64,000 bases of DNA from Betaproteobacteria bacterium. Its GTDB lineage: Bacteria > Pseudomonadota > Gammaproteobacteria > Burkholderiales > SG8-41. Location of the stretch: NCBI GenBank assembly GCA_021730905.1, contig JAKFYK010000004.1, positions 1 through 64,000 on the forward strand, given 5' to 3'. Below, one piece after another: positions 224 through 31,606 of the stretch (position 1 is its first letter; each line of letters starts with the position of its first letter). The position numbers were made by a program, and so were the translations under genes. Below the pieces are notes generated by a model, which had not been told where the DNA came from, searched no databases, and saw only the letters and a program-made list of their open reading frames with translations.

Positions 224-1192
224 TCATTTGGGCCGCAGTCCGATAGCAATAGCCCACTTGGTCAGCGCCTCAATTTGTGTGCGCCGTATTTTGTCCTGCT
301 CGTCAGGCGTGCTCGGCATGATTGCGTAGCCGAGCGCGTTGAACTTTTCGATAATGTCAGCGGATTCAAGCGCGCGTCCAATGTCCTTGCTGATTTTGTC
401 GACAATGGGACGCGGCGTTTGCGCAGGCGCCAGCAACGCGTTTGTCGATTCGGGACGTTTGAACTCCGGCAGGAATTCGCTCAGTGCCGGCGTGTCGGGC
501 AATTGGGGCAATCGCTGTGGCGTGTTCACGCCTAATGCCAGCAATCTCCCGTCCTTGATGAGCGGGTGCGCGGCAGCGTAGGTGAACACACCATAATGCA
601 CGCGGCCGGCAAGAACCTCAATGATGGCTTCCGGCTGCCCCTTGAACCCGACATGCACGGCTTTGATACCCGCAGTGAGCCTCACTCTTTCGCCTTGCAG
701 ATGCGATCCGCCGCCCGCACCCGCCGAAGCAAAAAACAGCTTGCCGGGATGTGCCTTGCCGAACGCTATGAGTTCCTTTACGGATTTGATTCCAATTGCG
801 GGAGATACCACCAGCGCTGATGCCGGGAATCCTAACTGGGCCACACCAGCGAAATCCTTGATAGGGTCATAGGGCAGGTTAGGCTGCAGCGCCGCGCTGG
901 CGACAAATGCACCTACAGCGATCAGGAGCGTGTAACCATCGGGAGTTGCTTTTGCCACTTGGACCGTGCCCAGTGTGCCGCCTGCTCCGGGTCGATTTTC
1001 AAAAATAACGGGTTGTCCCCAATATTCGCTTAGCTTGGGGCCGATGATGCGTGCGACGATGTCCGACGGATTGCCGGGAGTAGCGGGAACAACGATGCGA
1101 ACCGGCCGGTTCGGAAAGCTCTGCGCGGAAACCATGCTGCCAGAAGCAGCCATATATACCGCGACGAACAGCGCCTTGACGACTGTGTTCAT
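224..1192 (-). CDS. Bug/TctC family periplasmic tripartite tricarboxylate receptor
   Basis: This is a 322-residue extracytoplasmic solute-binding protein of the TTT (Bug) family, expected to bind a small carboxylate in the periplasm. A signal peptide (VVKALFVAVYMAASGSMVSAQS) precedes the family hallmark FPNRPVRIVVPATPGNPSDIVAR. ENRPGAGGTLGTVQVAKATPDGYTLL, also typical, follows. The frame opens farther upstream, at 1258, but ATG at 1192 is preferred because AGGAG lies six bases before it and the signal peptide then begins normally. No tctA or tctB permease gene is nearby. The gene diverges from a LysR regulator, which may control it. The ligand cannot be read from the sequence. Confidence 0.9.
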   Translation of the reverse strand: MNTVVKALFVAVYMAASGSMVSAQSFPNRPVRIVVPATPGNPSDIVARIIGPKLSEYWGQPVIFENRPGAGGTLGTVQVAKATPDGYTLLIAVGAFVASAALQPNLPYDPIKDFAGVAQLGFPASALVVSPAIGIKSVKELIAFGKAHPGKLFFASAGAGGGSHLQGERVRLTAGIKAVHVGFKGQPEAIIEVLAGRVHYGVFTYAAAHPLIKDGRLLALGVNTPQRLPQLPDTPALSEFLPEFKRPESTNALLAPAQTPRPIVDKISKDIGRALESADIIEKFNALGYAIMPSTPDEQDKIRRTQIEALTKWAIAIGLRPK

Positions 1193-1211
1193 GGCTACTC
1201 CTGTTTCCGGG

Positions 1212-1228
1212 TTGCTTACGATAAGCAA
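1212..1228. promoter_or_regulatory. Perfect inverted repeat, candidate LysR operator
   Basis: TTGCTTA-CGA-TAAGCAA is a perfect 7-bp inverted repeat with a 3-bp spacer. It sits 20 bp upstream of the receptor start and about 70 bp upstream of the divergent LysR start. Position and symmetry suit a regulator-binding site, although the half-site spacing is not the classical T-N11-A arrangement. Binding by the adjacent LysR protein is inference. Confidence 0.45.
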
Positions 1229-1298
1229 TAGATTGACACCCTGCCTTGTCATCCGCAATGATCCAGAAGTTCAAACTCGATGAAATTTGGTTACATAC

Positions 1299-4719: not shown

Positions 4720-6540
4720 CTATGCAGCTGCACGCGCTGCGCGCTTGCGGTCATGCTCCAGCAAAAAACGCTTGCGGATGCGGATCGACTTCGGCGTGAT
4801 CTCGACGAGCTCATCATCGGCGATGAATTCAATCGCAGATTCCAGCGTAACCTGAATCGGCGGGACCAGCCGCACCGCTTCGTCGGTGCCGGAGGCGCGC
4901 ACGTTGGTCAGCTGCTTGCCCTTGATTGGGTTGACCACCAGGTCGTTGTCGCGGCTGTGAATGCCGATGACGATGCCCTCGTAGAGCGGATCGCCGGGGC
5001 TGACGAACATTTTGCCGCGCTCCTGCAGTTTCCACAGGGCGTAGGCCACCGCCGTGCCGTTTTCGGCAGAGATCAGCACGCCATTGCGGCGCTCTTCCAT
5101 GTCGGGCTTCATCGGGCCGTAGTCGTCGAACACGTGGCTCATCAGGCCGGTGCCGCGCGTCATGGTGAGAAAATCCGACTGGAATCCGATGAGGCCGCGC
5201 GCGGGTATGCGATAGTCAAGGCGCACGCGGCCCTTGCCGTCGGATTGCATATCCTGCAAATCACCCCGGCGCGCGCCCAGCGCTTCCATCACTGCGCCTT
5301 GATTGGCATCTTCGCAATCGACGGTGAGCATTTCGTAAGGCTCGTGCTTCTCGCCGTTGATTTCCTTGATGACGACGCGGGGGCGCGACACCGCGAGCTC
5401 ATAACCTTCGCGCCGCATGTTTTCCAGCAATATGGTGAGATGCAGCTCGCCGCGTCCCGACACTTCAAACACGTCGGCGTCCGACGTTTCCACGACTTTA
5501 AGCGCGACGTTGCTCATTACCTCGCGTTGCAGCCGCTCGCGTATCTGGCGGCTGGTGACGAATTTGCCTTCGCGTCCGGCGAGCGGCGAGGTGTTCACCT
5601 GAAAATTCATGGTGAGCGTGGGCTCGTCCACTTTCAGCAGCGGCAGCGCCTCGGGCTTTTCAATGTCGGTTAGGGTGACGCCGATGCCAACATCCTCAAT
5701 GCCGTTGACGAGCACGATATCGCCGGCTTGGGCTTCGTCTGCAACGGTGCGGTCCAGCCCCTTGAAAACCAGTACTTGCCCCACCTTGGCGGGCTTGGGC
5801 GCGATATCTTCCGGACCGCGCATTACCATCACTTGCTGGCCGGGACGGATGCGTCCGCGCGTAATGCGGCCGATGCCGATGCGGCCGACGTAACTTGAAT
5901 AGTCGAGCGAACAAATTTGCAATTGCAGCAGGCCGTCCGGATCATCGTTGCGCACCGGCACATGCTGGATGATGGCTTCAAACAACGGATCCAGATTGCC
6001 CTCGCGCGCGTTGGCATCGAGGCTGGCATATCCGTTCAACGCCGAGGCGTAGATCACCGGGAAATCGAGCTGCTCTTCGGTCGCGCCGAGCTTGTCGAAC
6101 AGATCAAACGTGTGGTTGACCACCCAGTCGGCGCGTGCACCCGGACGATCAATTTTGTTGACCACCACGATGGGTTTCAGACCCAGCGCCAGCGCCTTGC
6201 GCGTGACAAAACGCGTTTGCGGCATCGGGCCTTCGACGGCATCGACCAGCAACAGCACACCATCGACCATCGACAGCACGCGCTCGACTTCACCGCCGAA
6301 ATCGGCGTGGCCGGGGGTATCCACGATGTTGATATGAGTGCCCTGCCAGGTTACCGCACAATTCTTCGCGAGTATGGTGATGCCGCGTTCTTTCTCGATG
6401 TCGTTGCTGTCCATCACGCGTTCTTCAATGTGCTGGTGCGCAGCGAACGTGCCCGATTGGCGCAACAGCTTGTCGACCAGCGTGGTTTTGCCGTGGTCGA
6501 CGTGGGCGATGATGGCGATGTTGCGTATTGCGCGGGACAT
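4720..6540 (-). CDS. typA: Ribosome-associated translational GTPase TypA/BipA
   Basis: This 606-residue GTPase has full family length. The G domain carries G1 ([15 protein letters not shown], about residues 12-26), the switch region [14 protein letters not shown]3 ([14 protein letters not shown]) and G4 (NKIDRPGAR). EF-G-like domains III and V and the BipA-specific C-terminus ([31 protein letters not shown]) follow. BipA binds the ribosome in a GTP-dependent way and assists 50S assembly and stress adaptation, notably in the cold. It starts at ATG 6540, is transcribed divergently from the DEAD-box helicase, and is followed by a globin-gene remnant with which it probably once formed an operon. 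Confidence 0.97.
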
Positions 6541-6847
6541 GGCGATTCCGGCTCAGTAAAAAGGCCGCGATTGTAGCACGGCAACTGGATTAAGTCGCTG
6601 TAGGTCATTGAATTTTCTGCAAAAGCTTGATATTCGCAAAAATGATGCATCGCAAAAAATCATTAGCCTTTTCCGTGACTTACAGGTATAGTGCGCGCAC
6701 CTCATGACCGGCCTCATTTTTGTAATCAGGTGGTTGTTGAGATGCATCTGTCCCTGACCCACCTGTTTCAGCTTCCTTCCTTTCTTCCTCCGGAATAGCT
6801 GCTTCTGCCACGGTTAGCGACGATACCCGTGCGCTGGCCGTGCTCGC

Positions 6848-6868
6848 CTGTCGATCCTTTTGCGACAG
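6848..6868 (+). promoter_or_regulatory. Leader hairpin 1 upstream of the DEAD-box helicase
   Basis: CTGTCG and CGACAG form a 6-bp stem around a 9-nt loop. Eight bases after it comes a run of six T. It could be a weak intrinsic terminator or a structured leader element of the helicase mRNA. Confidence 0.35.
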
Positions 6869-6895
6869 CCGTTCCTTTTTTGTCCGCGCTTTTTT

Positions 6896-6916
6896 AGACC
6901 GCCAGGTTGGCGGTCT
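6896..6916 (+). promoter_or_regulatory. Leader hairpin 2 close to the helicase start codon
   Basis: AGACCGCCA-GGT-TGGCGGTCT is a perfect 9-bp stem with a 3-nt loop, ending 23 bp before the helicase ATG. No T run follows it on either strand, so it is not an ordinary terminator. A stable hairpin next to a weak ribosome-binding region suits translational control, for instance by temperature or by the helicase itself. That role is inference. Confidence 0.5.
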
Positions 6917-6939
6917 GCTGTGTCTATTGAAAGAAACAA

Positions 6940-8271
6940 ATGTCATTTGAATCACTAAATCTGAATCCCACCATCGTGCAGGCTATTACCGCTGCCGGTT
7001 ACACCGAACCCACCGCCGTTCAGGCGCAAGCCATACCCGATGCCATCGCCGGTCATGACTTGATGGTGTCCGCGCCCACTGGCACCGGCAAAACCGCCGC
7101 GTTTGTGCTGCCCGCACTGCAACGTCTCGGCACGGCGCCCGCAAAGCATGGCCGCGGCCCGCGCGTGCTAGTACTGACTCCTACGCGCGAACTCGCGTTG
7201 CAAGTCACCAACGCCGTTTCCAAGTACAGCAGGGGTATGCGTCACGTGCGTACCGGCACCGTGCTCGGCGGCATGCCGTACCCGAAGCAACGCAAACTGC
7301 TCGACAGCCCGCTCGATATCCTGGTGGCGACCCCTGGCCGTCTGATTGATTTTATGGAGCAGGGCAAAGTTGATTTTTCCCGCCTCGAACTGCTGGTGCT
7401 AGACGAAGCCGACCGCATGCTCGACATGGGTTTTATCAAACCCGTCGAAACTATTGCCGCAGCGACGCCGACCACGCGCCAGACCATGTTGTTTTCGGCG
7501 ACGCTCGACGGCGGCATCGCCCAACTCGGCAAACGCCTGCTGCGCAATCCGAAGCTGATTGAAGTGGCCGCGCCCAGGGCGCGCCACGAAAACATCGAGC
7601 AACGCCTGCACTACGTCGATGACGGCAGTCACAAAGGCCGCCTGCTCGACCATTTTCTGCGCGACGTGGCGCTCGATCAGGCGATTGTATTTACCGCTAC
7701 CAAGCGCGGTGCGGATCGTCTTGCCAGCAAGCTTTATGAAGATGGCCACGCAGCGGCGGCATTGCACGGCGACATGAATCAATCGCAGCGCAATCGCACG
7801 CTGGCAAAAATGCGCAGCGGTAACGTGCGCGTGCTGGTCGCCACTGATGTCGCGGCGCGCGGCATCGACGTGCCGAGCATTTCACACGTGATCAATTACG
7901 ATCTGCCGAAAGCCGCCGAAGACTATGTTCACCGCATCGGGCGTACCGGACGCGCTGGTATAAATGGCATCGCGATTTCGTTTGCGGCGCCGGATGACGG
8001 CTGGCAAGTGCGGCAGATCGAACGCTATACCGGCCATGCCATCGTCGCGCATGTGGTGGAGGGGATGGAGCCCAAAGTTCCACAACGCAGTTCGCACAAA
8101 CCGGGGCCGCGCCAGGGTAAGGGAGGCAAAAGTGGCGGATACGCAGGACGCAGCGCAGGCGCGGGCCGTGCGGCGCCGGGCAGTGCTGGACGCTGGGGCA
8201 AGCCCGCTGGTGGCCCGGCGGCGTCACGCGGCAAGCCGGAACGCTCGTATTCATCGTTTCGCGGCCGCTAA
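6940..8271 (+). CDS. rhlE: DEAD-box ATP-dependent RNA helicase, RhlE type
   Basis: This 443-residue helicase has all the core motifs: Q motif (YTEPTAVQAQAIP), motif I (APTGTGKT), Ia (PTRELALQ), Ib (TPGR), II (DEADRMLDMGF), III (SATLD), then RGIDVPSISHVINYDLP and HRIGRTGR. The last 65 residues are a Gly/Lys/Arg-rich tail (GPRQGKGGKSGG...) typical of RhlE, which unwinds short RNA duplexes in ribosome assembly and mRNA decay. The leader contains a strong hairpin 23 bp before the start, and the Shine-Dalgarno sequence (GAAAGA) is weak, so translational control is plausible. RhlE versus another small DEAD-box protein is judged from length and tail. Confidence 0.92.
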   Translation: MSFESLNLNPTIVQAITAAGYTEPTAVQAQAIPDAIAGHDLMVSAPTGTGKTAAFVLPALQRLGTAPAKHGRGPRVLVLTPTRELALQVTNAVSKYSRGMRHVRTGTVLGGMPYPKQRKLLDSPLDILVATPGRLIDFMEQGKVDFSRLELLVLDEADRMLDMGFIKPVETIAAATPTTRQTMLFSATLDGGIAQLGKRLLRNPKLIEVAAPRARHENIEQRLHYVDDGSHKGRLLDHFLRDVALDQAIVFTATKRGADRLASKLYEDGHAAAALHGDMNQSQRNRTLAKMRSGNVRVLVATDVAARGIDVPSISHVINYDLPKAAEDYVHRIGRTGRAGINGIAISFAAPDDGWQVRQIERYTGHAIVAHVVEGMEPKVPQRSSHKPGPRQGKGGKSGGYAGRSAGAGRAAPGSAGRWGKPAGGPAASRGKPERSYSSFRGR

Positions 8272-8303
8272 GACCGCATGGGCATGAGCGAGACTATTAT
8301 GTG

Positions 8304-8330
8304 TAAAAAATCATTTAAAACAAATACTTG
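8304..8330 (-). repeat. AT-rich dispersed repeat, copy 1 (minus orientation)
   Basis: Read on the minus strand this is CAAGTATTTGTTTTAAATGA followed by a T-rich tail. It matches the consensus TAAGTATTTGTTTTTATT seen at eight other intergenic places in the window. It lies 33 bp after the helicase stop and 176 bp before a TctC gene. Confidence 0.7.
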
Positions 8331-8379
8331 CTGTCCGTTGCGGCGGATGGCACGGTTGTGGCGTATGCTGCCCAAGCGT

Positions 8380-8399
8380 GTCAAGCGTTAGGGCTTGAC
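8380..8399. promoter_or_regulatory. Inverted repeat upstream of tctC, candidate operator
   Basis: GTCAAGC-GTTAGG-GCTTGAC is a 7-bp inverted repeat with a 6-bp spacer, about 107 bp before the TctC start. A TATACA hexamer lies just downstream at about 8423, so the repeat could be a regulator site near a promoter. No regulator gene is adjacent, and the assignment is tentative. Confidence 0.35.
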
Positions 8400-8505
8400 G
8401 CTGGTCAATCCAGGCGTGAATCTATACACGAAAACAAGCGGGTAGATTTGCGGTACAAAGCTTTTCAAGCTGATTTCGACAACCGCGTTTAGGAGGAGTC
8501 AAATC

Positions 8506-9477
8506 ATGTTGTTTAGAGCCTTGGTAGGCGTGTCGTCTTTGTTGCTAATGGTTGCCGGTGCAACGGCGCAGGAGTTTCCGACCAAGCAGGTTAGTCTGGC
8601 GGTGCCGTTTGCCGCAGGCGGGCCGACGGACACGCTCGCGCGCAATCTTGCGGTGGCGATGACCCAGCACCTCAAGCAGCAAGTGGTCATCGAAAACGTT
8701 GCAGGTGCAGGCGGTACCCTTGCCGCGAACCGCATAGCCAAGGCCAAGCCTGACGGCTACAGTCTGCTGATCGCGCATATCGGCATGGCCACGGCGCCGG
8801 CGTTGTATCGCAAGTTGCCGTACAACCCGCTCACCGATTACGAATACATTGGTCAGGTAGCCGACGTGCCGATGACGCTGATCGCCAAAACAGGATTGCC
8901 GCCGGACAACCTGACGGAACTGATCGCCTATGTAAAGAAAAACAAGGAAAAACTCAACCTCGGCAACGCGGGGCTGGGCGCGGCATCGCATCTGTGCGGT
9001 CTGCTGTTTATGTCGCGCATCGAGGCGGATATCGTGACGATACCGTACAACGGCACAGCGCCTGCGATGACGGCGTTGATGGGCGGGCAGATCGACCTGA
9101 TGTGCGATCAAACCACCAACACCACCGCACAAATCAAATCGGGTCGCGTGAAGGTGTATGGCACGACCACCAAAACGCGCGTGCCATCGCTGTCGATGGT
9201 GCCGACCATGGCCGAGCAAGGCATGAAAGATTTTGAAGTCTCGGTGTGGCATGGCGTCTATGCGCCCAAAGGCACGCCCAAGCCGGTGATCGACAAGCTG
9301 GTGGCGGCGCTGCAGGCGTCGGTGCAGGATGCCCAGTTCAAGTCCCGTATCGCCGAACTCGGCGCGCAAGCGGTGACGAAGGACAAGGCCACGCCGGAGT
9401 CGCTCGCCAAGCATCTCAAGGCGGAAATCGAAAAGTGGAGTCCGATTATCAAAAAGGCGGGTGTCTACGCAGACTGA
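8506..9477 (+). CDS. Bug/TctC family periplasmic tripartite tricarboxylate receptor
   Basis: This 323-residue receptor has a signal peptide (LFRALVGVSSLLLMVAGATAQ) and the family motifs EFPTKQVSLAVPFAAGGPTDTLARNL and ENVAGAGGTLAANRIAKAKPDGYSLL. The start at 8506 is secured by AGGAGGAG ten bases upstream. It heads the region of the molybdenum hydroxylase and UbiD genes, but a good terminator candidate (9510-9542) separates them. It is therefore probably its own transcription unit delivering the same kind of substrate. No TctAB membrane partners are visible. The ligand is unknown, and an aromatic or heteroaromatic carboxylate is a guess from context. Confidence 0.92.
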   Translation: MLFRALVGVSSLLLMVAGATAQEFPTKQVSLAVPFAAGGPTDTLARNLAVAMTQHLKQQVVIENVAGAGGTLAANRIAKAKPDGYSLLIAHIGMATAPALYRKLPYNPLTDYEYIGQVADVPMTLIAKTGLPPDNLTELIAYVKKNKEKLNLGNAGLGAASHLCGLLFMSRIEADIVTIPYNGTAPAMTALMGGQIDLMCDQTTNTTAQIKSGRVKVYGTTTKTRVPSLSMVPTMAEQGMKDFEVSVWHGVYAPKGTPKPVIDKLVAALQASVQDAQFKSRIAELGAQAVTKDKATPESLAKHLKAEIEKWSPIIKKAGVYAD

Positions 9478-9509
9478 GCGCAGACTAGGACTGTCGCGCG
9501 AAGTTCTGT

Positions 9510-9542
9510 CCCTCGCAGCCGTACGGCGCGGGGGATTTTTTT
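9510..9542 (+). terminator. Intrinsic terminator candidate after tctC
   Basis: CCCTCGC pairs with GCGCGGG (six of seven pairs) around a 9-nt loop, followed by GGA and seven T. It lies 33 bp after the TctC stop and would isolate that gene from the downstream hydroxylase operon. Confidence 0.55.
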
Positions 9543-9622
9543 GCGCGGGCTGCGGATTGCCTTTCATGTCGCCTGCCATTAGAGTAAGCGCCTTCCTCGG
9601 CCGCGGCACGGCAATAAAACGA

Positions 9623-9697
9623 ATGAAAATCTCCGGTGACATCACTTTGCATGAGCGCGGCGGCATGGTATTTTCCGCGCTGCAGGTTGCCGCATGA
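9623..9697 (+). pseudogene. Short frame resembling the N-terminus of CoxG (SRPBCC), possibly a remnant
   Basis: ATG at 9623 opens a 24-codon frame that begins MKISGDITLH and continues VFSALQ before stopping at 9697. CoxG proteins, the SRPBCC partners of molybdenum hydroxylases, commonly begin MKIxGxxTLxA and then VW/FxALxD. The frame ends in an ATGA overlap with the start of the FAD subunit, so it could still couple translation to that gene as a leader peptide. No further CoxG sequence follows. Chance resemblance cannot be excluded with so few residues. Confidence 0.4.
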
Positions 9698-10575
9698 CGC
9701 CGTTCGAACTTGCCGAACCGCGCACGCTGCGCGAGGCGGCTGAGCTGATCGATACGGATGATCCGTCGGTGCGCCCCATCGCCGGCGGCACCGCCCTGAT
9801 GCTGATGATGAAAGCGGGCATGTTCCAGCCGGTGAAGCTGGTGAGTCTGCGCGGCGTGGAAACATGCTACTCGGAAATTGGCGCCACGAATGATGGCGGC
9901 CTGCGCATCGGCGCGATGACGACGTTGACGGCGCTGGCGCACTCTGCCGCGGCGCTATCCGCCGCACCGGTGATTGTCCGGACGCTGAAAACATTGTCGA
10001 ACGTGCGCGTGCGCAACGTCGCCACGCTGGGTGGGCATCTGGCGCACGGCGATCCGCATATGGATTTGCCGCCAGTGATGATGGTGTTGGGCGCGCGAGT
10101 GCGGACGTTATTGCCCGCGGGCGATCGTACATCCGGCCTCGCGGGCGAACGCATGCTGGAAGTGGCGGATCTGTACGCCGGCTATTACGAAACTACGCTT
10201 GCACGCAACGAATTGATCGCCGACATTATCGTGCCGCCGCAGGCAGGCCGGCGCGCGGCTTACTGCAAGATCACGACGCGCGCCGCGGACGATTGGCCGA
10301 CGCTCGGCATCGCGGTGTCGCTGAAGATGGAGGATCACGTGATCACCGATGCGCGTCTGGTGGTGAGTGCGGCAACCGAAAAGCCGACACGGCTTGCTGC
10401 CGCGGAAGCGGTGCTGCGCGGCGCGCCGTTCGATCCGAAGACACTGGCGCGCTGCGGAGAAGCGGCTGCCGCGGAAGTGGAGATGGCGGCAGACATGCAC
10501 GGTTCGGCGTCGTACAAGCGCGAGTTGCTGCGGGTGTACGCGGCGCGTGCGGTGCGCATGGCGGCCAATACATAA
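9694..10575 (+). CDS. Xanthine-dehydrogenase-family FAD-binding subunit (medium, CoxM-like)
   Basis: This 293-residue FAD subunit belongs to a three-subunit molybdenum hydroxylase. FAD-contacting motifs are PIAGGTALMLMMKAG (about residues 28-42) and VRNVATLGGHLAHGDPHMDLPPVM (about 107-130), and a CO_deh_flav_C-type domain fills the C-terminus. It passes electrons from the 2Fe-2S subunit to an external acceptor. Gene order is medium-large-small, followed by a UbiD decarboxylase. The stop codon TAA is the first part of an AT-rich repeat that fills the whole 27-bp gap to the large subunit. Confidence 0.9.
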   Translation: MTPFELAEPRTLREAAELIDTDDPSVRPIAGGTALMLMMKAGMFQPVKLVSLRGVETCYSEIGATNDGGLRIGAMTTLTALAHSAAALSAAPVIVRTLKTLSNVRVRNVATLGGHLAHGDPHMDLPPVMMVLGARVRTLLPAGDRTSGLAGERMLEVADLYAGYYETTLARNELIADIIVPPQAGRRAAYCKITTRAADDWPTLGIAVSLKMEDHVITDARLVVSAATEKPTRLAAAEAVLRGAPFDPKTLARCGEAAAAEVEMAADMHGSASYKRELLRVYAARAVRMAANT

Positions 10576-10602
10576 GTATTTGTTTTTATTTATTATTTTA
10601 TC
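10573..10602 (+). repeat. AT-rich dispersed repeat, copy 2, forming the whole intergenic linker
   Basis: TAAGTATTTGTTTTTATTTA plus a further AT tail runs from the FAD-subunit stop codon to the ATG of the molybdenum subunit. It leaves no Shine-Dalgarno sequence for the downstream gene. It is the clearest copy of the window-wide family. Confidence 0.75.
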
Positions 10603-12891
10603 ATGACAAGGCACACGAGCACGATCGGACGTTCGCTGCCGCGACTCGAGGCGCGGGCAAAGGTCACCGGCCGTGCCGAGTACGTGCACAACCTGCGCGT
10701 GCCCGGCATGTTGCACGCAAAAGTGTTTCGCAGCAGCGTGGCGCATGGGCGCATCCGCGCGATTGATGTTGCCGCTGCGCGTGCCATGCCCGGCGTGTTC
10801 GCGGTGTACACCGGCGAGGACATCCGCAAGATGATCGCCGAACCATACTACGGCCCGGCGTTTCATGACCAGCCGATACTGGCGCTCGACAAGGTGCGCC
10901 ATGTGGGCGAACCGGTGGCGGTGGTGCTGGCCGCCGACGCGCACGTGGCGGACAACGCCGCGCAAACCATCGTTGCCGAATATGACGAACTGCCCGCAGT
11001 GTATGACGAAGTCGAGGCCATGACGTCGCGCGCCGTGGTGCACGAGGTGCTGAAGCCTGCGGGCACGTTTGCCGATCTCAAATACCTGAAGGACAAGCGC
11101 GATACCAATATCGCGCTGGACTTCCATTTGCGGCGCGGCGATGTGGCGAAAGCGTTTGCCGAGGCCGATCACGTGTTCGAGCACACCTTCCATACGCAGC
11201 AGGTGCTGCACCTGCCGCTGGAGCCTTTTGCCTGCGTAGCCGAGCCGTCGGGCGATCCGGCATCGGGCGCGTTGACGCTGCACAGTTCCACGCAAAGCCC
11301 GTCGTTCGTGCGCAGCGAAATCGCACGGCTGTTCGGCTGGCCCGACAACAGGGTGCGGGTGAAAGTGCCCTATCTGGGCGGCGGCTTCGGCGCCAAGGTT
11401 TACGTCAAATCCGAAGCGCTGGCGGCAGTGTGCGCGATGCTGGCATGCCGCCCGGTGAAATATGCGCTGACGATGGAGGAGCAGTTCTACATGATCACCA
11501 AGCACGCCACGACGCTGCGCATCAAAAGTGGTGTCGCACGCGACGGGCGTATTTCCGCGCGCGAGTGCGAAGTGTGGTGGAACGGCGGCGCGTATGCGGA
11601 CATCGGCCCGCGTGTCACGCAGAAATCGGGCTTCACTGCAGCGGGGCCGTACGACATCGACAACGTGCATATCGATTCGTACGCGCTCTATACCAATTTG
11701 CCGCCGGCGGGTGCGCTGCGCGGCTTTGGCATACCGCAACTGGTATGGGCGTACGAGAGCCATACCGACATGATCGCGCGCGAACTCAAAATCGATCCGC
11801 TTGCGCTCCGCCGCAAGAACCTGCTGCGCGAAGGCCGTCCGCAGGCGACGGGCACGCCGATGCGCGATGCGGCGCTCGATCTGGTACTGGAGCGTTTGGC
11901 CGCTCGCATGCAATGGGACCGGCCCTTTGATAAAGGCAGCGGCACAATCAAACGCGGACGCGGTATCGCCATCGGTTTCAAGGCGAGTATTTCGCCGACG
12001 ACTTCGATGGCCATCGTCAATCTCGCCGCCGACGGCAGTTGCAGCCTGTACTCCAGCACCGTGGATATGGGGCAGGGCTCGGACACGGCGATGGCGCAAA
12101 TGGTGTCCGAGGTGATGGGCGTGCCGATGGAGAAAATCACGGTGGTGCATCCCGACACCGATGTCACGCCGTACGACATGGCCACGCTCGGCTCGCGTTC
12201 GACCTACCACATGGGCCACGCGGTGAAGAACGCCGCCGAGGATGCGCGCGACAAGCTGTATGCGCTGGCGCGTGACGTGGGTTTGTCTGCCGAGACCACG
12301 CCCATCCCGGAGATTTTCCGCAAGAAATACGGCATGCTTGCCGGCAATATCGTCGGCATCGGGAGTTTTATCCCGCCGTACACGCCGCCCGATGCCAAAG
12401 GCCAGACCGATAACGCCACGCCGTTCTGGATGATCGGCGCCACCGGCGCGGAGATCGAGGTCGATGCCGAAACCGGCGAGTTCAGGGTGACACGCCTGGT
12501 GAACCTGGTGGATGTGGGCAAGGCTATCAACCCCGCCATCGTCGAGACGCAGATTTCCGGCGCGACGGTGATGCAGCTCGGGTTCACGCTGACGGAGCGC
12601 ATGGAGTTCCAGGCAGGGCAGGTCACCAATGCCTCGCTTGCCCATTACAAGATTCCGGGCATGCGCGATATTCCGCGCGTGATGGAAAATGAAGCGGTTG
12701 ATGCCAATCAGAAAAGCGGTCCGTTCGGCGCCAAAGGCGTGGGTGAGAGCGGCACCTTCGGCGTGTCGCCGGCCATTGCCAATGCGATAGACGATGCCGT
12801 GGGCGTGCGGCTGACCCGTTTGCCGCTCACCGCCGAGGCCGTGTACCGCGCGTTGCGTGCCAAAGCGGGCAGCCCGCTCAAGGACGATTAA
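10603..12891 (+). CDS. Xanthine-dehydrogenase-family molybdopterin-binding (large) subunit
   Basis: This 762-residue catalytic subunit hydroxylates its substrate at a molybdenum-cytosine- or molybdopterin-dinucleotide centre. Visible motifs are the N-terminal a/b hammerhead (GRAEYVHNLRVPGMLHAKVFRS), PYLGGGFGAKVYVKSEALAA, GALRGFGIPQ, VDMGQGSDTAMAQM and the catalytic-glutamate motif GAKGVGESGTFGVSPAIANAI. The AYxCSFR active-site loop of true aerobic CO dehydrogenase is absent and replaced by RGFG. It is thus a hydroxylase of the xanthine, 4-hydroxybenzoyl-CoA or N-heteroaromatic kind, not CoxL proper. No Shine-Dalgarno sequence precedes the ATG, only the AT-rich repeat. The substrate is unknown, and the adjoining UbiD suggests an aromatic or heteroaromatic acid. 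Confidence 0.92.
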   Translation: MTRHTSTIGRSLPRLEARAKVTGRAEYVHNLRVPGMLHAKVFRSSVAHGRIRAIDVAAARAMPGVFAVYTGEDIRKMIAEPYYGPAFHDQPILALDKVRHVGEPVAVVLAADAHVADNAAQTIVAEYDELPAVYDEVEAMTSRAVVHEVLKPAGTFADLKYLKDKRDTNIALDFHLRRGDVAKAFAEADHVFEHTFHTQQVLHLPLEPFACVAEPSGDPASGALTLHSSTQSPSFVRSEIARLFGWPDNRVRVKVPYLGGGFGAKVYVKSEALAAVCAMLACRPVKYALTMEEQFYMITKHATTLRIKSGVARDGRISARECEVWWNGGAYADIGPRVTQKSGFTAAGPYDIDNVHIDSYALYTNLPPAGALRGFGIPQLVWAYESHTDMIARELKIDPLALRRKNLLREGRPQATGTPMRDAALDLVLERLAARMQWDRPFDKGSGTIKRGRGIAIGFKASISPTTSMAIVNLAADGSCSLYSSTVDMGQGSDTAMAQMVSEVMGVPMEKITVVHPDTDVTPYDMATLGSRSTYHMGHAVKNAAEDARDKLYALARDVGLSAETTPIPEIFRKKYGMLAGNIVGIGSFIPPYTPPDAKGQTDNATPFWMIGATGAEIEVDAETGEFRVTRLVNLVDVGKAINPAIVETQISGATVMQLGFTLTERMEFQAGQVTNASLAHYKIPGMRDIPRVMENEAVDANQKSGPFGAKGVGESGTFGVSPAIANAIDDAVGVRLTRLPLTAEAVYRALRAKAGSPLKDD

Positions 12892-13374
12892 GTGCCGATG
12901 AATACGACACGCACCATCCAATTCACGCTCAACGGCGAACCCATTACCGCGCAAATTGGCACGCATCAGCACTTGATTGAAGTGCTGCAGGACCGCGGTC
13001 TTACCGGCGCACGCGAGAGTTGCGCGCAGGGCTTGTGCGGTTGCTGCACGGTGCTGGTGAATGACACGGCGGTTTCGGGCTGCCTGTATCTGGCGGCATT
13101 CGCCGACGGTGCGGCGGTGCGCACCATCGAGCATCTGCCCCAGGGCAAACTCGATGCGGTGCAGGAAGCCTTCATCGAATGCGGTGCGTTTCAATGCGGG
13201 TATTGCACGCCGGGATTCATCCTGATGACGCGGCAACTGCTGGATGAACATGCCGATCCGTCCGAAGACGATATCCGTCATTACCTGTCGGGTAATCTTT
13301 GCCGCTGCGCGGCGTATCCCGAAATCATCAGGGCGGTTAAACTGGCGGCGATGAAACGCAAAGGTGAAAGATGA
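12892..13374 (+). CDS. 2Fe-2S iron-sulfur subunit of the molybdenum hydroxylase (small, CoxS-like)
   Basis: This is the small subunit, of about 160 residues, with two 2Fe-2S clusters. The N-terminal plant-ferredoxin-type cluster is CAQGLCGCCTVLVN plus a later Cys. The C-terminal helical cluster is CGAFQCGYCTPGF with LSGNLCRCAAYPEI. It relays electrons between molybdenum and FAD. GTG at 12892 directly follows the large-subunit stop and has AGGA seven bases upstream. ATG at 12898 is an alternative start that shortens the protein by two residues. The end overlaps the UbiD gene by four bases (ATGA), implying translational coupling of hydroxylase and decarboxylase. Confidence 0.92.
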   Translation: MPMNTTRTIQFTLNGEPITAQIGTHQHLIEVLQDRGLTGARESCAQGLCGCCTVLVNDTAVSGCLYLAAFADGAAVRTIEHLPQGKLDAVQEAFIECGAFQCGYCTPGFILMTRQLLDEHADPSEDDIRHYLSGNLCRCAAYPEIIRAVKLAAMKRKGER

Positions 13375-14825
13375 CGCGTGGCGCCGGCAATCCGCTGGAT
13401 TTACGCGCATGGCTGGATGCCGCGCGCAAACTCGGCGAGTTGAAGGATGTGCGAGGCGCGGACTGGAACCTCGAACTTGGCGCGATCAGCGAACTCAATG
13501 TCAAAATCGATTCCGCGCCGGCGTTGCTGTTCGATGACATCAAAGGCTATGCGCAGGGTTTTCGTGTGCTGACCTGCACTACCAGCAGCCCGGCGCGCCT
13601 GTCCAGCATTTTGCGCCTGGGCGACGAACGCACGCACAGCGGTGTGGTTCACAAACTGCGTGGCCGTCCCAAAGACTGGCAAACGGACACGCCGAAATTC
13701 GAACCGGTCGTCGCCGAAAAAGGCCCGATATTCGAGAACATTCAGTCGGGTGATGCGGTCAACCTTGGCGCATTTCCTGCGCCGTTGTGGCACGAGAAAG
13801 ATGGCGGGCGCTACATCGGCACCGGCTGCATGGTGGTGACGCGCGATCTCGACAGCGATTGGGTGAATGTCGGCGCGTATCGGGTGATGATTCACGACCG
13901 CAACACCGTCGGCCTCGACATGATTCCCGGTAAGCACGGCGCGATCCAGTACGACAAGCACATGAAGGCTAACAAACCGTTTCCGGTGGCGATCGTGTGT
14001 GGCGCCGATCCGCTCGGCTATCTGATCGCCGGCATCGAAGTGCCGTTTGGCATGTGCGAATACAACTACATCGGTTCCATCCTCGGTGAGCCGGTGTCGG
14101 TAGTACGCGGCGAGGTTACCGGGCTGCCGTTTCCGAGTGGTGCCGAGCTGGTGCTCGAAGGCTGGGCGCATCCGGGTGACGAGCGCATCGAAGGACCATT
14201 TGGGGAATTTCACGGCTACTACCCGGGCAAGGCGGCGACTGCGCCAGCGGTGAAGATCGAGAAAATTTATTTCAGAAATAATCCGATCATCGTCGGCAGT
14301 CCGCCCGCGAAGCCGCCCAACGATTATTCTTATTCCAAAGCGGTGATGCGCTCGGCGCTGCTGCTCGACGCGCTGGCGGCGGCGGGCGTGCCCGATGTGC
14401 AAAATGTGTGGGCGCATGAAATCGGCGGTGCGCGCATGTTCAACGTGGTGGCTATCAAACAGCGCTACGCGGGACACGCGCGTCAGGCCGGACATATTCT
14501 CAGTCAATGTGGCGTCGGTGCGTACATGTCGCGTTATTCGGTGGTAGTCGATGAGGATATCGATCCATCCAATCTGCAGGAAGTGATGTGGGCGGTAGCC
14601 ACGCGCACCGATCCCGACATCGACATCGACATCATCAAGCGTGGCATGGGCTCGAAGAACGATCCGATGTCGATTGCTTATCCGTATAATGCGCCGCTGG
14701 CGTCGAAAGCAGTGATCGATGCGTGCCGGCCCTATGATTTTCTCAAAACATTCCCGGAAGTGGCCGAGGCGAGCAAGGCGTTGCAGGATGAGGTGCGGGC
14801 GAAGTGGAAAGTGCTTTTTAAGTGA
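13371..14825 (+). CDS. UbiD-family prenylated-FMN-dependent decarboxylase
   Basis: This 484-residue UbiD-type enzyme belongs to a family that reversibly decarboxylates aromatic, heteroaromatic or alpha,beta-unsaturated acids using prenyl-FMN made by UbiX. Conserved segments include GAYRVMIHDRNTVGLDM, the glutamate motif EGPFGEFHGYY (E274 and E279), and GSPPAKPPNDYSYSKAVMRS. Its start overlaps the hydroxylase small-subunit stop (ATGA), so it is the last gene of that operon. No ubiX-like gene is in the window, so prFMN must come from elsewhere. The pairing suggests hydroxylation followed by decarboxylation of one ring, or the reverse (inference). Confidence 0.9.
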   Translation: MTRGAGNPLDLRAWLDAARKLGELKDVRGADWNLELGAISELNVKIDSAPALLFDDIKGYAQGFRVLTCTTSSPARLSSILRLGDERTHSGVVHKLRGRPKDWQTDTPKFEPVVAEKGPIFENIQSGDAVNLGAFPAPLWHEKDGGRYIGTGCMVVTRDLDSDWVNVGAYRVMIHDRNTVGLDMIPGKHGAIQYDKHMKANKPFPVAIVCGADPLGYLIAGIEVPFGMCEYNYIGSILGEPVSVVRGEVTGLPFPSGAELVLEGWAHPGDERIEGPFGEFHGYYPGKAATAPAVKIEKIYFRNNPIIVGSPPAKPPNDYSYSKAVMRSALLLDALAAAGVPDVQNVWAHEIGGARMFNVVAIKQRYAGHARQAGHILSQCGVGAYMSRYSVVVDEDIDPSNLQEVMWAVATRTDPDIDIDIIKRGMGSKNDPMSIAYPYNAPLASKAVIDACRPYDFLKTFPEVAEASKALQDEVRAKWKVLFK

Positions 14826-14901: not shown

Positions 14902-15861
14902 GTGAAGCAACTACTGACTCTACTGGCTATGACTTTGCCGTTTGCGGCAACGGCGCAGGACTTCCCGACAAAATCCATCCGCGTACTGGTGTCTTTCGCG
15001 CCAGGTGGGGTGGTAGATACTTCGACGCGCATTGTCACCGGCAAGATTACCGAGGCGCTGGGCTGGCAGTTCGTGGTGGATAACCGTCCGGGGGCCAATG
15101 GTTTCATAGGCGCGGCGGCGGCGGCGAAGGCGAACGCCGACGGCTACACCCTGCTGTCGGCGCACACCGGCGAATTCGCGGTGAATCCGGTGATGTTCAA
15201 GAGCTTGCCCTACGATCCCGAAAAATCGTTTCTGCCGGTCATCATGCTGAGCGATGCGCCGATGCTGATCGTGGTGAACATCCAGTCGCCGATCAACAGC
15301 ATCAAAGACTTGATCGCGGCGGCGCGCGCCAAACCGGGTGTGGTGACCTTCGGTTCGCCCGGCACCGGTTCGGTGAATCACATGGCGAGCGAATGGCTGG
15401 CGGCGGCAGCAGGCGTGAAAATGGTGCATGTGCCGTACAAGGGTGGCGCGCCGGCGGTAGTCGCGGTGGCAACCAATGATGTGACATTTACCATCGCCGG
15501 CATGCCCGGCGTGTCGCCGCACTTGCAGGGCAAACGCGTCAAGGTGCTCGGCATTACCACCGCCAAGCGCTCGCCGCTGGTGCCCGACTACGCTACGGCG
15601 CAGGAGATGGGAGTCGCTGGTGTTGATGCGTCGATCTGGGTGGGTTTTTTCGTGCCCGCTGGCACACCACAGACCGTCATTAACAAGCTCTACAACGCGT
15701 CGGCGGATGCGTTGAAGCGCCCCGAAGTTAAAGAGCGCCTCGCCGTGGTGGGCGGTGCCGAGGCTGTGGCAACAGCGAGCGCTGCGTTCAATACGCGTAT
15801 CGCCAGCGACATCGAGCGCTACAAAAAAGTGGCGCAGCAGGTCGGAATCAAGCCCGAATAA
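14902..15861 (+). CDS. Bug/TctC family periplasmic tripartite tricarboxylate receptor
   Basis: This 319-residue receptor starts at GTG with AAGGAG seven bases upstream. The signal peptide (QLLTLLAMTLPFAATAQ) is followed by DFPTKSIRVLVSFAPGGVVDTSTRIV and DNRPGANGFIGAAAAAKANADGYTLL. It lies directly downstream of the hydroxylase-UbiD operon and upstream of a cytochrome c, all on the same strand, which makes it the best candidate to capture the substrate of that pathway. No TctAB permease is adjacent. The palindrome in front of it may partly insulate it from the upstream operon. Confidence 0.92.
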   Translation: MKQLLTLLAMTLPFAATAQDFPTKSIRVLVSFAPGGVVDTSTRIVTGKITEALGWQFVVDNRPGANGFIGAAAAAKANADGYTLLSAHTGEFAVNPVMFKSLPYDPEKSFLPVIMLSDAPMLIVVNIQSPINSIKDLIAAARAKPGVVTFGSPGTGSVNHMASEWLAAAAGVKMVHVPYKGGAPAVVAVATNDVTFTIAGMPGVSPHLQGKRVKVLGITTAKRSPLVPDYATAQEMGVAGVDASIWVGFFVPAGTPQTVINKLYNASADALKRPEVKERLAVVGGAEAVATASAAFNTRIASDIERYKKVAQQVGIKPE

Positions 15862-15938
15862 TACAGGGCCAGCATACAAATATTGACGATGCCATCGAGC
15901 CGCGACAGAATCGGCATCACGATAATCGGGGAGTGTTC

Positions 15939-16298
15939 ATGAACCGCAAGCCAGTGTTGATCGCCGCGTGCCTTGCCGGATTATCCGGCATGTCGTCCGC
16001 GCAGGAACTGCCTGCGGACGATGCCGCGCGCGGATACAAAGCCTACACGCATCACCTTTGCGACACCTGCCACGGCACCGTGGGTCAAGGCGGCGAGCGC
16101 GGCGCCGGGCCGAGGATCGCGCCGGGTGTGTGGCCGTATCCGGCTTTCGCACAGCAGGTGCGCAAACCGCGCCTGGTGATGATTCCCTATAGCGAAAAAA
16201 CGCTGCCCGAGCAGGAACTTGTTGATATGCACGCGTATCTGCGTACGATCAAAAATCCAGCGGCGGCGAAGGACGTGCCGCTGTTGAAGGATTTTTGA
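15939..16298 (+). CDS. Small periplasmic c-type cytochrome
   Basis: This 119-residue protein has a signal peptide (about residues 1-22, ending SSAQE) and one heme c site, CDTCH, at about residues 41-45. The central VGQGGERGAGPRIAPGVWPYPAFAQQVR segment and a C-terminal helix (PEQELVDMHAYLRTIKN) resemble class I cytochromes that pair with dehydrogenases. ATG at 15939 follows GGGGAG, and the GTG two codons earlier is less likely. Placed after the molybdenum hydroxylase, UbiD and TctC, it may be the electron acceptor of a periplasmic step or of the nearby Tat-signal ThDP enzyme. That role is inference. Confidence 0.85.
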   Translation: MNRKPVLIAACLAGLSGMSSAQELPADDAARGYKAYTHHLCDTCHGTVGQGGERGAGPRIAPGVWPYPAFAQQVRKPRLVMIPYSEKTLPEQELVDMHAYLRTIKNPAAAKDVPLLKDF

Positions 16299-20488: not shown

Positions 20489-21442
20489 ATGTGGCGTTTT
20501 GCAATGATTTTGCTTGCGGGGCTGACGCACACGGCAGCAGCGCAATCCTATCCCACCAAGCCGATCAGGCTGGTGGTGCCCTATCCGCCGGGCGGACCGA
20601 CGGATTTTGTCGGGCGCGCGGTTGCCGCCAAGTTGACCGAGCTGCTGGGCCAGCAGATGGTAGTGGACAACCGTCCTGGCGCCGGTACGGTGATTGCCAG
20701 CGAGATGATCGCGCGCGCGGCACCCGATGGCTACAACCTGCTGTTCGGCACTGGCGGTGGCACGTTTCTCGCGCCGCTGATATTGCCCAAGGTGCCGTAC
20801 GATCCGCAGAAGGACTATGCGCCGGTGGCGATGCTGGTGATGAGTCCGCAGGTGCTGGTAGTGCATCCCTCGACCGGTGCGAATTCCGTCAAGGAACTGA
20901 TCGCGGTTGCCAAGGCCAAGCCAGGCCAGCTTAATTTTTCGTCGGTGGGCACGGGTACGTCGCCGCACCTGGGGGGTGAGCTGTTCAAATCGCTTGCGGG
21001 CGTGGAAATCGTGCATGTGCCGTACAAGGGCACGGCGCCTTCCATGACCGATCTGATCGCTGGCCGCGTGCAACTGGCGTTCAGCAGTATACCCACGGTG
21101 CTGACGCATGTGCAGGCGGGGCGGCTCAAAATGCTCGGCACCGGCGGCACCAAACGTTCACCTGCGCTGCCGGATATCGCGCCGATCGCGGAGTCGCTGC
21201 CGGGTTTTGAACTGGTGACGTGGTATGCGCTATTCGCGCCCGCAGGCACGCCGGCAGCCATCGTCAACCGGTTGAACAGCGAAACCGCGAAAGTGCTGAA
21301 GGACGCCGATATTCAAAAGCGCTTCGGCGAACAGGGGCTGGAAACCACCCTCATGACGCCGCAGGAGCTGAAGCGCTACACCGAAAACGATGTCAGCCGC
21401 TGGTCGCGGCTGATCAAGGCGGCGAACATCAAGACGCAGTGA
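20489..21442 (+). CDS. Bug/TctC family periplasmic tripartite tricarboxylate receptor
   Basis: This 317-residue receptor has GGGAGG eight bases before its ATG and a short signal peptide (RFAMILLAGLTHTAAAQ). The motifs YPTKPIRLVVPYPPGGPTDFVGR and DNRPGAGTVIASEMIARAAPDGYNLL are standard for the family. It converges on an oxalyl-CoA-decarboxylase-like gene and a CoA-transferase, so a dicarboxylate or hydroxy-acid ligand is conceivable but unproven. No TctAB genes are nearby. Confidence 0.92.
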   Translation: MWRFAMILLAGLTHTAAAQSYPTKPIRLVVPYPPGGPTDFVGRAVAAKLTELLGQQMVVDNRPGAGTVIASEMIARAAPDGYNLLFGTGGGTFLAPLILPKVPYDPQKDYAPVAMLVMSPQVLVVHPSTGANSVKELIAVAKAKPGQLNFSSVGTGTSPHLGGELFKSLAGVEIVHVPYKGTAPSMTDLIAGRVQLAFSSIPTVLTHVQAGRLKMLGTGGTKRSPALPDIAPIAESLPGFELVTWYALFAPAGTPAAIVNRLNSETAKVLKDADIQKRFGEQGLETTLMTPQELKRYTENDVSRWSRLIKAANIKTQ

Positions 21443-30631: not shown

Positions 30632-31606
30632 TTACTCCGGTTTTGCCCCGGACGCCTTCACCACCGGTGCCCAGCGCTCGATCTCCGCTTTGAGGTAGTT
30701 CGCAAAAAATTCGGGTGACTCTGCTACCGGGTCCGCGCCGAGTTGCGCGAGACGCTTGTTGAATTCCGGATTTTTCACAACCGTGTTTATTGCGTTGTTG
30801 AGTTTCGTCACGATGTCGCGCGGCGTTGCAGCGGGCGCGAGCAGGCCATACCACGTTGAGGTCTCGAACTTGGGCACGCCGGCTTCGGCCATGGTCGGCA
30901 AATCCGGCAGCAACGGCGAACGCTTTGCGCTGGTAATCGAAATAGCGCGCAGGCGGCCGGCCTTGATGTAATTGATCGATGCTGGAATGTTATTGAACGA
31001 AAATTCCACTTCGCCCGACAGCAGCGCGGTCATCGACGGCGCGCTGCCGCGATACGGAATATGCACGATGCCGATGCCGGCCATTACCTTGAGCATTTCG
31101 CCCGACAAGTGCTGGGTGCTGCCGCTGCCGGAAGTCGAGTAGTTGAGCTTGCCGGGATACTGTTTGGCGAAGGCGACGAACTCCTTTACCGTTTTGGGCG
31201 GCAGCGAGGGATGCGTGATCAGCAGATTCGGACTGATCGCGAACAAGGCAATCGGCGCGAAATCCCTGACCGGATGGTAGTTGATCTTCGGATAGAGGCT
31301 GATGTTGATGCCCAGCGCCGCCGAGCTCATGAACAGCGTGTAACCGTCCGCGGGCGATTTCGCGATGTATTCGGCCGCGATATTTTGCGCGGCGCCTGCG
31401 CGATTCTCGACGATCATTTGCTGGCCAAGAGACTTGATGAGTTCCTGCCCCATGATGCGGCCCATGATGTCGCTGCCGCCGCCGGGCGCGTAGCCGACAA
31501 TCATACGCACGGGTTTTGATGGATACGATGATGCCGGCTCAGCGGCACGGGTGCCGTGCGTGGCGCAGAGTGCAATCAATGGAATGAGTATAAGTATTTG
31601 TTTCAT
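30632..31606 (-). CDS. Bug/TctC family periplasmic tripartite tricarboxylate receptor
   Basis: This 324-residue receptor has the signal peptide KQILILIPLIALCATHGTRAAE, YPSKPVRMIVGYAPGGGSDIMGR and ENRAGAAQNIAAEYIAKSPADGYTLF. The stop lies two bases from the convergent D-aminoacylase stop. The start region is unusual: the first seven codons (MKQILIL) are part of an AT-rich repeat copy in the opposite orientation, and the bases before ATG (AAATATCATT) contain no Shine-Dalgarno sequence. Translation may rely on the unstructured AT-rich leader. No TctAB genes are adjacent. Confidence 0.9.
   Translation of the reverse strand: MKQILILIPLIALCATHGTRAAEPASSYPSKPVRMIVGYAPGGGSDIMGRIMGQELIKSLGQQMIVENRAGAAQNIAAEYIAKSPADGYTLFMSSAALGINISLYPKINYHPVRDFAPIALFAISPNLLITHPSLPPKTVKEFVAFAKQYPGKLNYSTSGSGSTQHLSGEMLKVMAGIGIVHIPYRGSAPSMTALLSGEVEFSFNNIPASINYIKAGRLRAISITSAKRSPLLPDLPTMAEAGVPKFETSTWYGLLAPAATPRDIVTKLNNAINTVVKNPEFNKRLAQLGADPVAESPEFFANYLKAEIERWAPVVKASGAKPE

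Follow-up and report, generated by a model that had tools for sequence, protein, structure and literature searches.

A molybdenum hydroxylase and a UbiD-family decarboxylase linked in three bacterial phyla: a candidate module for the breakdown of a nitrogen heteroaromatic acid

Introduction

What task might be shared by a molybdenum hydroxylase and a UbiD-family decarboxylase whose genes overlap in a single operon? The question is raised by a 64,000-nucleotide stretch of a Betaproteobacteria bacterium draft genome (GenBank assembly GCA_021730905.1, contig JAKFYK010000004.1, positions 1 to 64,000 of the forward strand; we refer to this whole stretch as the window), in which genes for three hydroxylase subunits are followed on the same strand by a gene for a UbiD-type enzyme. 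To our knowledge, few UbiD enzymes have an assigned substrate, and most molybdenum hydroxylases are annotated merely as 'xanthine dehydrogenase family'. A first-pass annotation of this DNA suggested that the two enzymes act together on a heteroaromatic or aromatic acid. Linkage across three phyla, in differing gene orders, lends strong support to this coupling, and we propose, with a probability of about one half, that the genes together serve the catabolism of a nitrogen-containing heteroaromatic acid.

Results and Discussion

The operon and its linkage across phyla

The genes in question are as follows.

9694-10575, + strand: FAD subunit of the molybdenum hydroxylase (Pfam FAD_binding_5, CO_deh_flav_C)
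10603-12891, + strand: molybdopterin (molybdenum cofactor, MoCo; large) subunit (Pfam MoCoBD_1, MoCoBD_2, Ald_Xan_dh_C)
12892-13374, + strand: 2Fe-2S (small) subunit (Pfam Fer2, Fer2_2)
13371-13374, + strand: ATGA, a 4-nt overlap containing the stop codon of the small subunit and the start codon of UbiD (read from the sequence)
13371-14825, + strand: UbiD-family prenylated flavin mononucleotide (prFMN) decarboxylase (Pfam UbiD_N, UbiD, UbiD_C)

Open reading frames and Pfam matches agree in placing these four genes here in one direction, as first annotated, and the FAD, MoCo and 2Fe-2S subunits all have their Pfam domains above gathering scores. The reported ATGA is seen in the sequence, although the description 'fused by overlap' is overstated, as the genes overlap by 4 nt and there is no fusion. 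The 2Fe-2S gene starts with a GTG codon, and an ATG follows at 12898. We note also a minus-strand open frame of 1100 aa (10108-13410) lying antisense to the hydroxylase genes, which probably arises as a shadow of coding on the opposite, high-GC strand.

Within the family of the window's organism we examined 74 genomes, counting UbiD at 75% identity or more and the large subunit at 70% or more. UbiD is present in 38 and the large subunit in 39, with both in 36, UbiD alone in 2, the large subunit alone in 3 and neither in 33 (Fisher p 5e-15, uncorrected for kinship), and this co-occurrence excludes chance pairing. In 34 of the 36 genomes with both genes they lie on the same contig and strand, with UbiD 481 to 4015 nt downstream; in the remaining 2 they are on separate contigs. 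At least one large subunit besides that of the window was found in the 398 phylum genomes drawn, with no more than two candidates scored per genome.

The linkage extends well beyond the family. Scanning one genome per species, we kept 80 loci (given L numbers here) from the 98 UbiD relatives found, and in 62 of these (63 of 81 with the window) the DNA fetched encodes the large or the 2Fe-2S subunit of a hydroxylase; these loci belong to Pseudomonadota, Acidobacteriota and Bacillota. Linkage is clustered on the UbiD tree (11 changes vs 20.6 in shuffles, with 0 of 500 shuffles as low), and an ortholog of the large subunit (51–80% identity) is present in 16 of 17 UbiD-bearing genomes tested, the miss being A. 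kakegawensis. Protein distances of UbiD and the large subunit are correlated over 51 loci (r 0.83; 0 of 5000 permutations as high), a value to which shared host descent contributes; this figure omits L093, whose large subunit is distant and whose inclusion gives r 0.67 over 52 loci. Counting the window, a 2Fe-2S gene ends no more than 2.5 kb upstream of UbiD in 46 loci, and 19 of them (18 of 45 without the window) have an overlap of the ATGA type. As an aside on this tree, the UbiD proteins of metagenome-assembled genomes (MAGs) titled Bordetella parapertussis (L036, L039, L040, L042-L044, L054, L059) group with those of other betaproteobacterial MAGs, and the name looks wrong.

The order of the genes differs considerably between lineages. 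The family arrangement is (CoxG)-FAD-large-2Fe2S-UbiD, which is shared by five of the seven Bacillota loci that have the hydroxylase, the other two (L076, L106) having an MFS gene before UbiD. Acidobacteriota have UbiD-CoxG-FAD-large-2Fe2S, and Pigmentiphaga has UbiD-TctC-hydrolase-FAD-large-2Fe2S-CoxG-RidA with a ligase on the opposite strand; Paraburkholderia (L122 with L112, L126 with L063, and L154) has hydrolase-FAD-large-2Fe2S followed by RidA, a ligase (opposite), UbiD, CoxG and MFS. Since the set stays together although its order changes, a shared pathway is a better explanation than chance proximity, and the pairing of UbiD with the hydroxylase is old.

The hydroxylase

The predicted products of the three subunit genes constitute a xanthine-oxidase-family molybdenum hydroxylase, a class assignment that we regard as certain. 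A glutamate following GVG in the MoCo subunit is catalytic and a hallmark of this family; the large subunit has GAKGVGESG at 709, and the GE of the GVGE motif is invariant over 51 loci. The active-site loop of aerobic CO dehydrogenase, AYxCSFR, is absent, as the first-pass annotation had noticed, with ALRGFGIPQ (at 371) in the aligned stretch, and an aerobic CO dehydrogenase is thus ruled out. There are 10 cysteines in the 2Fe-2S subunit and 3 in the whole FAD subunit (58, 191 and 254).

None of the subunits reaches an NCBIfam equivalog cut-off. The large subunit's best solved match is 4-hydroxybenzoyl-CoA reductase (322 bits), which, like other xanthine-oxidase-family hydroxylases, has the same three-subunit build and MoCo domains; it differs in that the window's subunits fall far below its curated cut-offs (alpha 520.3 of 994.55, beta 106.1 of 404.55 and gamma 121.5 of 257.8 bits).

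The decarboxylase and its pocket

The other predicted product is a prFMN decarboxylase of the UbiD family; here too the class is certain, and the fold of the predicted structure agrees. The only curated model whose cut-off is passed is the general TIGR00148 (265.2 bits, cut-off 244.85), and the E-R-E residues R171, E274 and E279 are present, all three being conserved in each of the 26 orthologs compared. The ortholog of P. graminis is 79% identical. The closest solved relative, both by sequence (300.7 bits, 36% identity) and by fold, is the phenazine-1-carboxylate decarboxylase 7pda of Mycobacterium fortuitum, whose operon is given as phdA-phdB-phdC in PMC13040415. Second is the pyrrole-2-carboxylate decarboxylase PA0254/HudA, which shares the E-R-E residues and is 35% identical.

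Comparison of the substrate loops reveals where the window enzyme departs from both. Its loop, NDYSYSK, occupies residues 317–323. In HudA, according to PMC7976604, Asn318 contacts the ring nitrogen and Trp322 forms a pocket wall; the same text numbers the corresponding histidine of the furan enzyme HmfF as 297. At the position of Asn318 and the HmfF histidine the window UbiD has Tyr319 (25 of 26 orthologs have Tyr here and one has Phe), and at that of Trp322 it has Lys323, invariant in all 26; by alignment 7pda has Ala at both. The predicted structure has a mean pLDDT (predicted local distance difference test) of 78, falling below 50 at residues 313–319, so pocket residues were mapped by alignment alone and are certain at sequence level only. 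The invariant lysine and near-invariant tyrosine suggest that the substrate may bear a second acidic group. Two specific assignments can be set aside: a plain pyrrole-2-carboxylate decarboxylase, by the changes Asn318 to Tyr and Trp322 to Lys, and a phthaloyl-CoA decarboxylase, the EbN1 enzyme being 27% identical.

Taken together, the nearest models of the two enzymes raise the prospect of a benzenoid pathway, possibly a carboxylase plus a reductase, in which UbiD would act like phenylphosphate carboxylase and the hydroxylase like 4-hydroxybenzoyl-CoA reductase. For the large subunit the best NCBIfam function model is indeed 4-hydroxybenzoyl-CoA reductase alpha, in keeping with its best solved match, and for UbiD it is phenylphosphate carboxylase beta; moreover, a 46% UbiD relative lies near phthaloyl-CoA decarboxylase on plasmid 2 of A. 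aromaticum. However, the scores are far below the curated cut-offs (520 vs 995 and 259 vs 469 bits), and RidA, a frequent partner described below, goes unexplained. The FAD subunit of 4-hydroxybenzoyl-CoA reductase carries an extra 4Fe-4S site, for which three scattered cysteines are too few. We consider a benzenoid pathway improbable. Among the curated families and solved relatives compared, none supplies a known substrate for either enzyme.

Flanking and partner genes

The window operon is flanked by the following genes.

8506-9477, + strand: TctC-type periplasmic receptor, upstream (Pfam TctC 6.8e-63)
14902-15861, + strand: second TctC-type receptor, downstream (Pfam TctC 5.6e-63)
15933-16298, + strand: small CxxCH cytochrome c, a doubtful member (Pfam Cytochrome_CBB3 5.4e-08)

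The upstream receptor is likely to serve uptake of an acid substrate. At least three further TctC receptors lie in the first 36 kb of the window (224-1258, 20489-21442 and 30632-31606), which together with the operon's pair makes five.

Partners were counted in the 80 loci besides the window by score thresholds that we set ourselves: TctC is found in 49, CoxG in 43, RidA in 17, MFS in 15, an AMP-binding ligase in 14, IclR in 10, UbiX in 8, a PcaD-like hydrolase in 8, a cyclase in 7, an RraA-like protein in 5 and XdhC in 4. The flanking TctC receptors and cytochrome c described in the first-pass annotation are both present, although the cytochrome is not a conserved part: it occurs in 5 of the 80 loci (6 of 81 with the window), all close kin, and is ruled out as a core component. 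From three matches in the organism's own 5.1-Mb genome, about 1 RidA in 80 loci would be expected by a rough estimate, compared with the 17 seen, and all three RidA proteins that we read have the PAR motif. PcaD-like hydrolases were also seen outside the 80 loci, in L122, L126, L151 and L154, and at 40% in L155. Two MFS transporters were scanned and resemble aromatic acid symporters, below the curated cut-off.

RidA-family partners imply an enamine or imine intermediate, and hydroxylases of this superfamily oxidise carbon adjacent to a ring nitrogen. The association with CoxG, RidA and a PcaD-like or cyclase-type hydrolase thus points to a nitrogen heteroaromatic acid, and it is on the RidA partners, the nearest solved UbiDs and the superfamily chemistry that we base this choice within the originally suggested 'heteroaromatic or aromatic' class, which is itself supported.

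Sixteen stretches with extended flanks (L116-L131) were obtained; genes were called in L116, L122 and L124, with usable calls in the first two, and the other 13 were examined with the known query set only. A second UbiD gene lies in the clusters of three Paraburkholderia genomes (L122, L126, L154) and of a Halalkalibacter (L118). In L118 (2077-3033) and L122 (9162-10853) this protein (548–564 aa) is accompanied by UbiX, and the Halalkalibacter and P. graminis sequences are 80% identical. Clusters with two UbiD genes fit a polycarboxylic substrate. Two further arrangements were seen around molybdenum hydroxylases. Near the first hydroxylase, a second one (large plus 2Fe-2S) stands beside a cupin gene in L163 (10022-13433) and L151 (19489-23005), the cupin being annotated in L151 and cupin-like by eye in L163, where the Pfam match is only to a C-terminal rubredoxin domain. 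Plasmids of Alicycliphilus denitrificans DP3 and Arthrobacter crystallopoietes (L152, L156) have in common a gene set that includes a molybdenum hydroxylase, a polysaccharide-deacetylase family protein, an amidase or asparaginase, an adenylate-forming ligase, a thioesterase, a quinone oxidoreductase, XdhC and TcuA.

Proposed function

We propose that the operon encodes a hydroxylation and decarboxylation module for a nitrogen-containing heteroaromatic acid, perhaps a polycarboxylic one, for which we infer the substrate, the order of reactions and the product. TctC receptors would help to import the acid. UbiD, with prenylated FMN, would strip a ring carboxylate, and the hydroxylase would place a water-derived oxygen onto the ring carbon beside the nitrogen, yielding a lactam; the enzyme classes follow from sequence, whereas the carboxylate and the position on the ring are inferred. 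In the relatives, where the partner genes are observed, a PcaD-like or cyclase-type hydrolase could open the lactam, and RidA could free the nitrogen from an enamine or imine. If these last two steps occur in the window's lineage, they would have to be encoded elsewhere.

The second UbiD and UbiX in the Paraburkholderia and Halalkalibacter clusters prompt a more specific suggestion, which we offer tentatively and think rather unlikely as a whole: an oxygenase-free route that degrades an N-heteroaromatic acid with two or three carboxylates, such as a polycarboxylated pyrrole or pyridine. Carboxylates would be removed by as many as two different UbiD enzymes, the hydroxylase would add oxygen taken from water, ring opening would fall to a hydrolase of the lactone or lactam type, and RidA would release ammonia to leave a central oxo-acid. 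There is no oxygenase among the named cluster genes, although no systematic oxygenase search was made.

Several observations weigh against a coupled N-heteroaromatic module. For 18 of the 81 UbiD loci, the DNA fetched contains neither a large nor a 2Fe-2S subunit. Two of them (L051, L068) do have the hydroxylase, outside the fetched locus, and eight (L067, L070, L083, L087, L092, L100, L102, L103) run into contig ends or are unresolved; in about eight (L075, L084, L089, L091, L093, L099, L105, L107) the 8 kb upstream contain no hydroxylase ortholog. The latter comprise a betaproteobacterial subclade, two Alicyclobacillus and others, L093 having a distant hydroxylase only. Conversely, hydroxylase relatives of 60–70% identity in Ancylobacter, Alicycliphilus and Salipiger have no UbiD match nearby; that of Ancylobacter is neighboured by RidA, hydrolase, CoxG and MFS, while genome G377 has hydroxylase, hydrolase and CoxG, the 32 kb read there containing no match to UbiD, and in genome G050 RidA and an aldehyde dehydrogenase lie near a hydroxylase of the same clade, without UbiD. 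The AMP-binding ligase of 14 of the 80 loci (Paraburkholderia and Pigmentiphaga lineages) is not needed by a free-acid route, and the second UbiD, seen in three of eight genomes with extended flanks plus one plasmid, has no match in the other five.

The organism's own genome adds to this list. Its locus has no linked RidA or hydrolase, and the best matches in the genome are only 34% and 32% identical, respectively, and lie on other contigs. The first-pass annotation had proposed a search for ubiX and molybdenum-cofactor genes, which yielded a divided result: MoaA is present, while in the draft (91.66% complete) no UbiX exceeds the cut-off, there being only a CoaBC-length frame, and XdhC_C has no match despite 19 MoCoBD_1 stretches. 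Absences in a draft of this completeness are weak evidence; we note, however, that UbiX was also not found in the congener G068, rated 100% complete, with 12 of 14 genus genomes having one over the cut-off.

The loci with one enzyme and not the other could be accounted for if the two were co-regulated but separate, serving parallel branches with no common intermediate. Both the eight or so clear UbiD orthologs lacking a hydroxylase and the hydroxylase relatives lacking UbiD would be expected on these terms, yet linkage in three phyla with rearranged order, together with overlapping genes, argues otherwise, and we judge such separation unlikely. Since hydroxylase relatives retain the partners without UbiD, UbiD resembles an add-on or replaceable supply step for a core made up of hydroxylase, hydrolase and RidA.

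Should the proposed module be correct, it would reveal how a nitrogen aromatic acid is removed by freshwater and soil bacteria, perhaps without oxygenases. The pair spans three phyla, and its carriers include culturable bacteria (Paraburkholderia, Pigmentiphaga, Alicyclobacillus and Halalkalibacter), in which the substrates of both enzymes can be tested together.

Comparison with furan clusters and other known systems

No description of this cluster was found among the papers listed, as judged from titles and the openings of abstracts and with subscription journals mostly outside the scope. Those listed for the plasmid strains ZM13 and DP3 were unrelated. The 'new pathway' of the first-pass annotation we keep as a candidate only, and that annotation did not name the precedent for combining a molybdenum hydroxylase with UbiD, the furan hmf clusters, whose function in furan breakdown is described in PMC12064950. 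In a furan variant of the present operon, UbiD would decarboxylate furan-2,5-dicarboxylate and the hydroxylase would oxidise furoate or furoyl-CoA. In the hmf clusters a molybdenum hydroxylase of three subunits occurs with UbiD, UbiX and an AMP-binding ligase, and a TctC gene is present in one of the two examined; the Paraburkholderia relatives likewise carry a ligase, and an enol-lactone would be a fitting target for a PcaD-like hydrolase. Nevertheless, the large subunit is 30–31% identical to HmfA and UbiD 28–31% to HmfF, the HmfF histidine is replaced by Tyr319, HmfD/HmfE-type genes are absent from the window operon, and RidA is not explained; we regard a furan variant as very improbable. 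Identity with the hmf cluster itself is rejected, the enzymes being non-orthologous (28–31%) and the operon containing neither ligase nor hydratase.

A separate operon elsewhere in the organism's genome (L141, C1:166001-186000, at 6162-13079) does contain an hmf-like hydroxylase, 33–35% identical to HmfA. It encodes a second UbiD (544 aa, of the long clade), a FAD subunit, a large subunit, TctC and CoxG; a 2Fe-2S gene was not called.

Among the closest known parallels to the window operon is the pair of plasmid-borne hmf clusters, which like it bring UbiD and a three-subunit molybdenum hydroxylase together in one catabolic cluster. They add UbiX, a ligase and transporters, whereas the window operon is without ligase or hydratase, and HmfA is about 1010 aa in length compared with 762 aa for the window large subunit. 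The combination of the two enzyme types is already known from hmf, and what differs is this conserved, non-orthologous pair with a substrate loop of its own.

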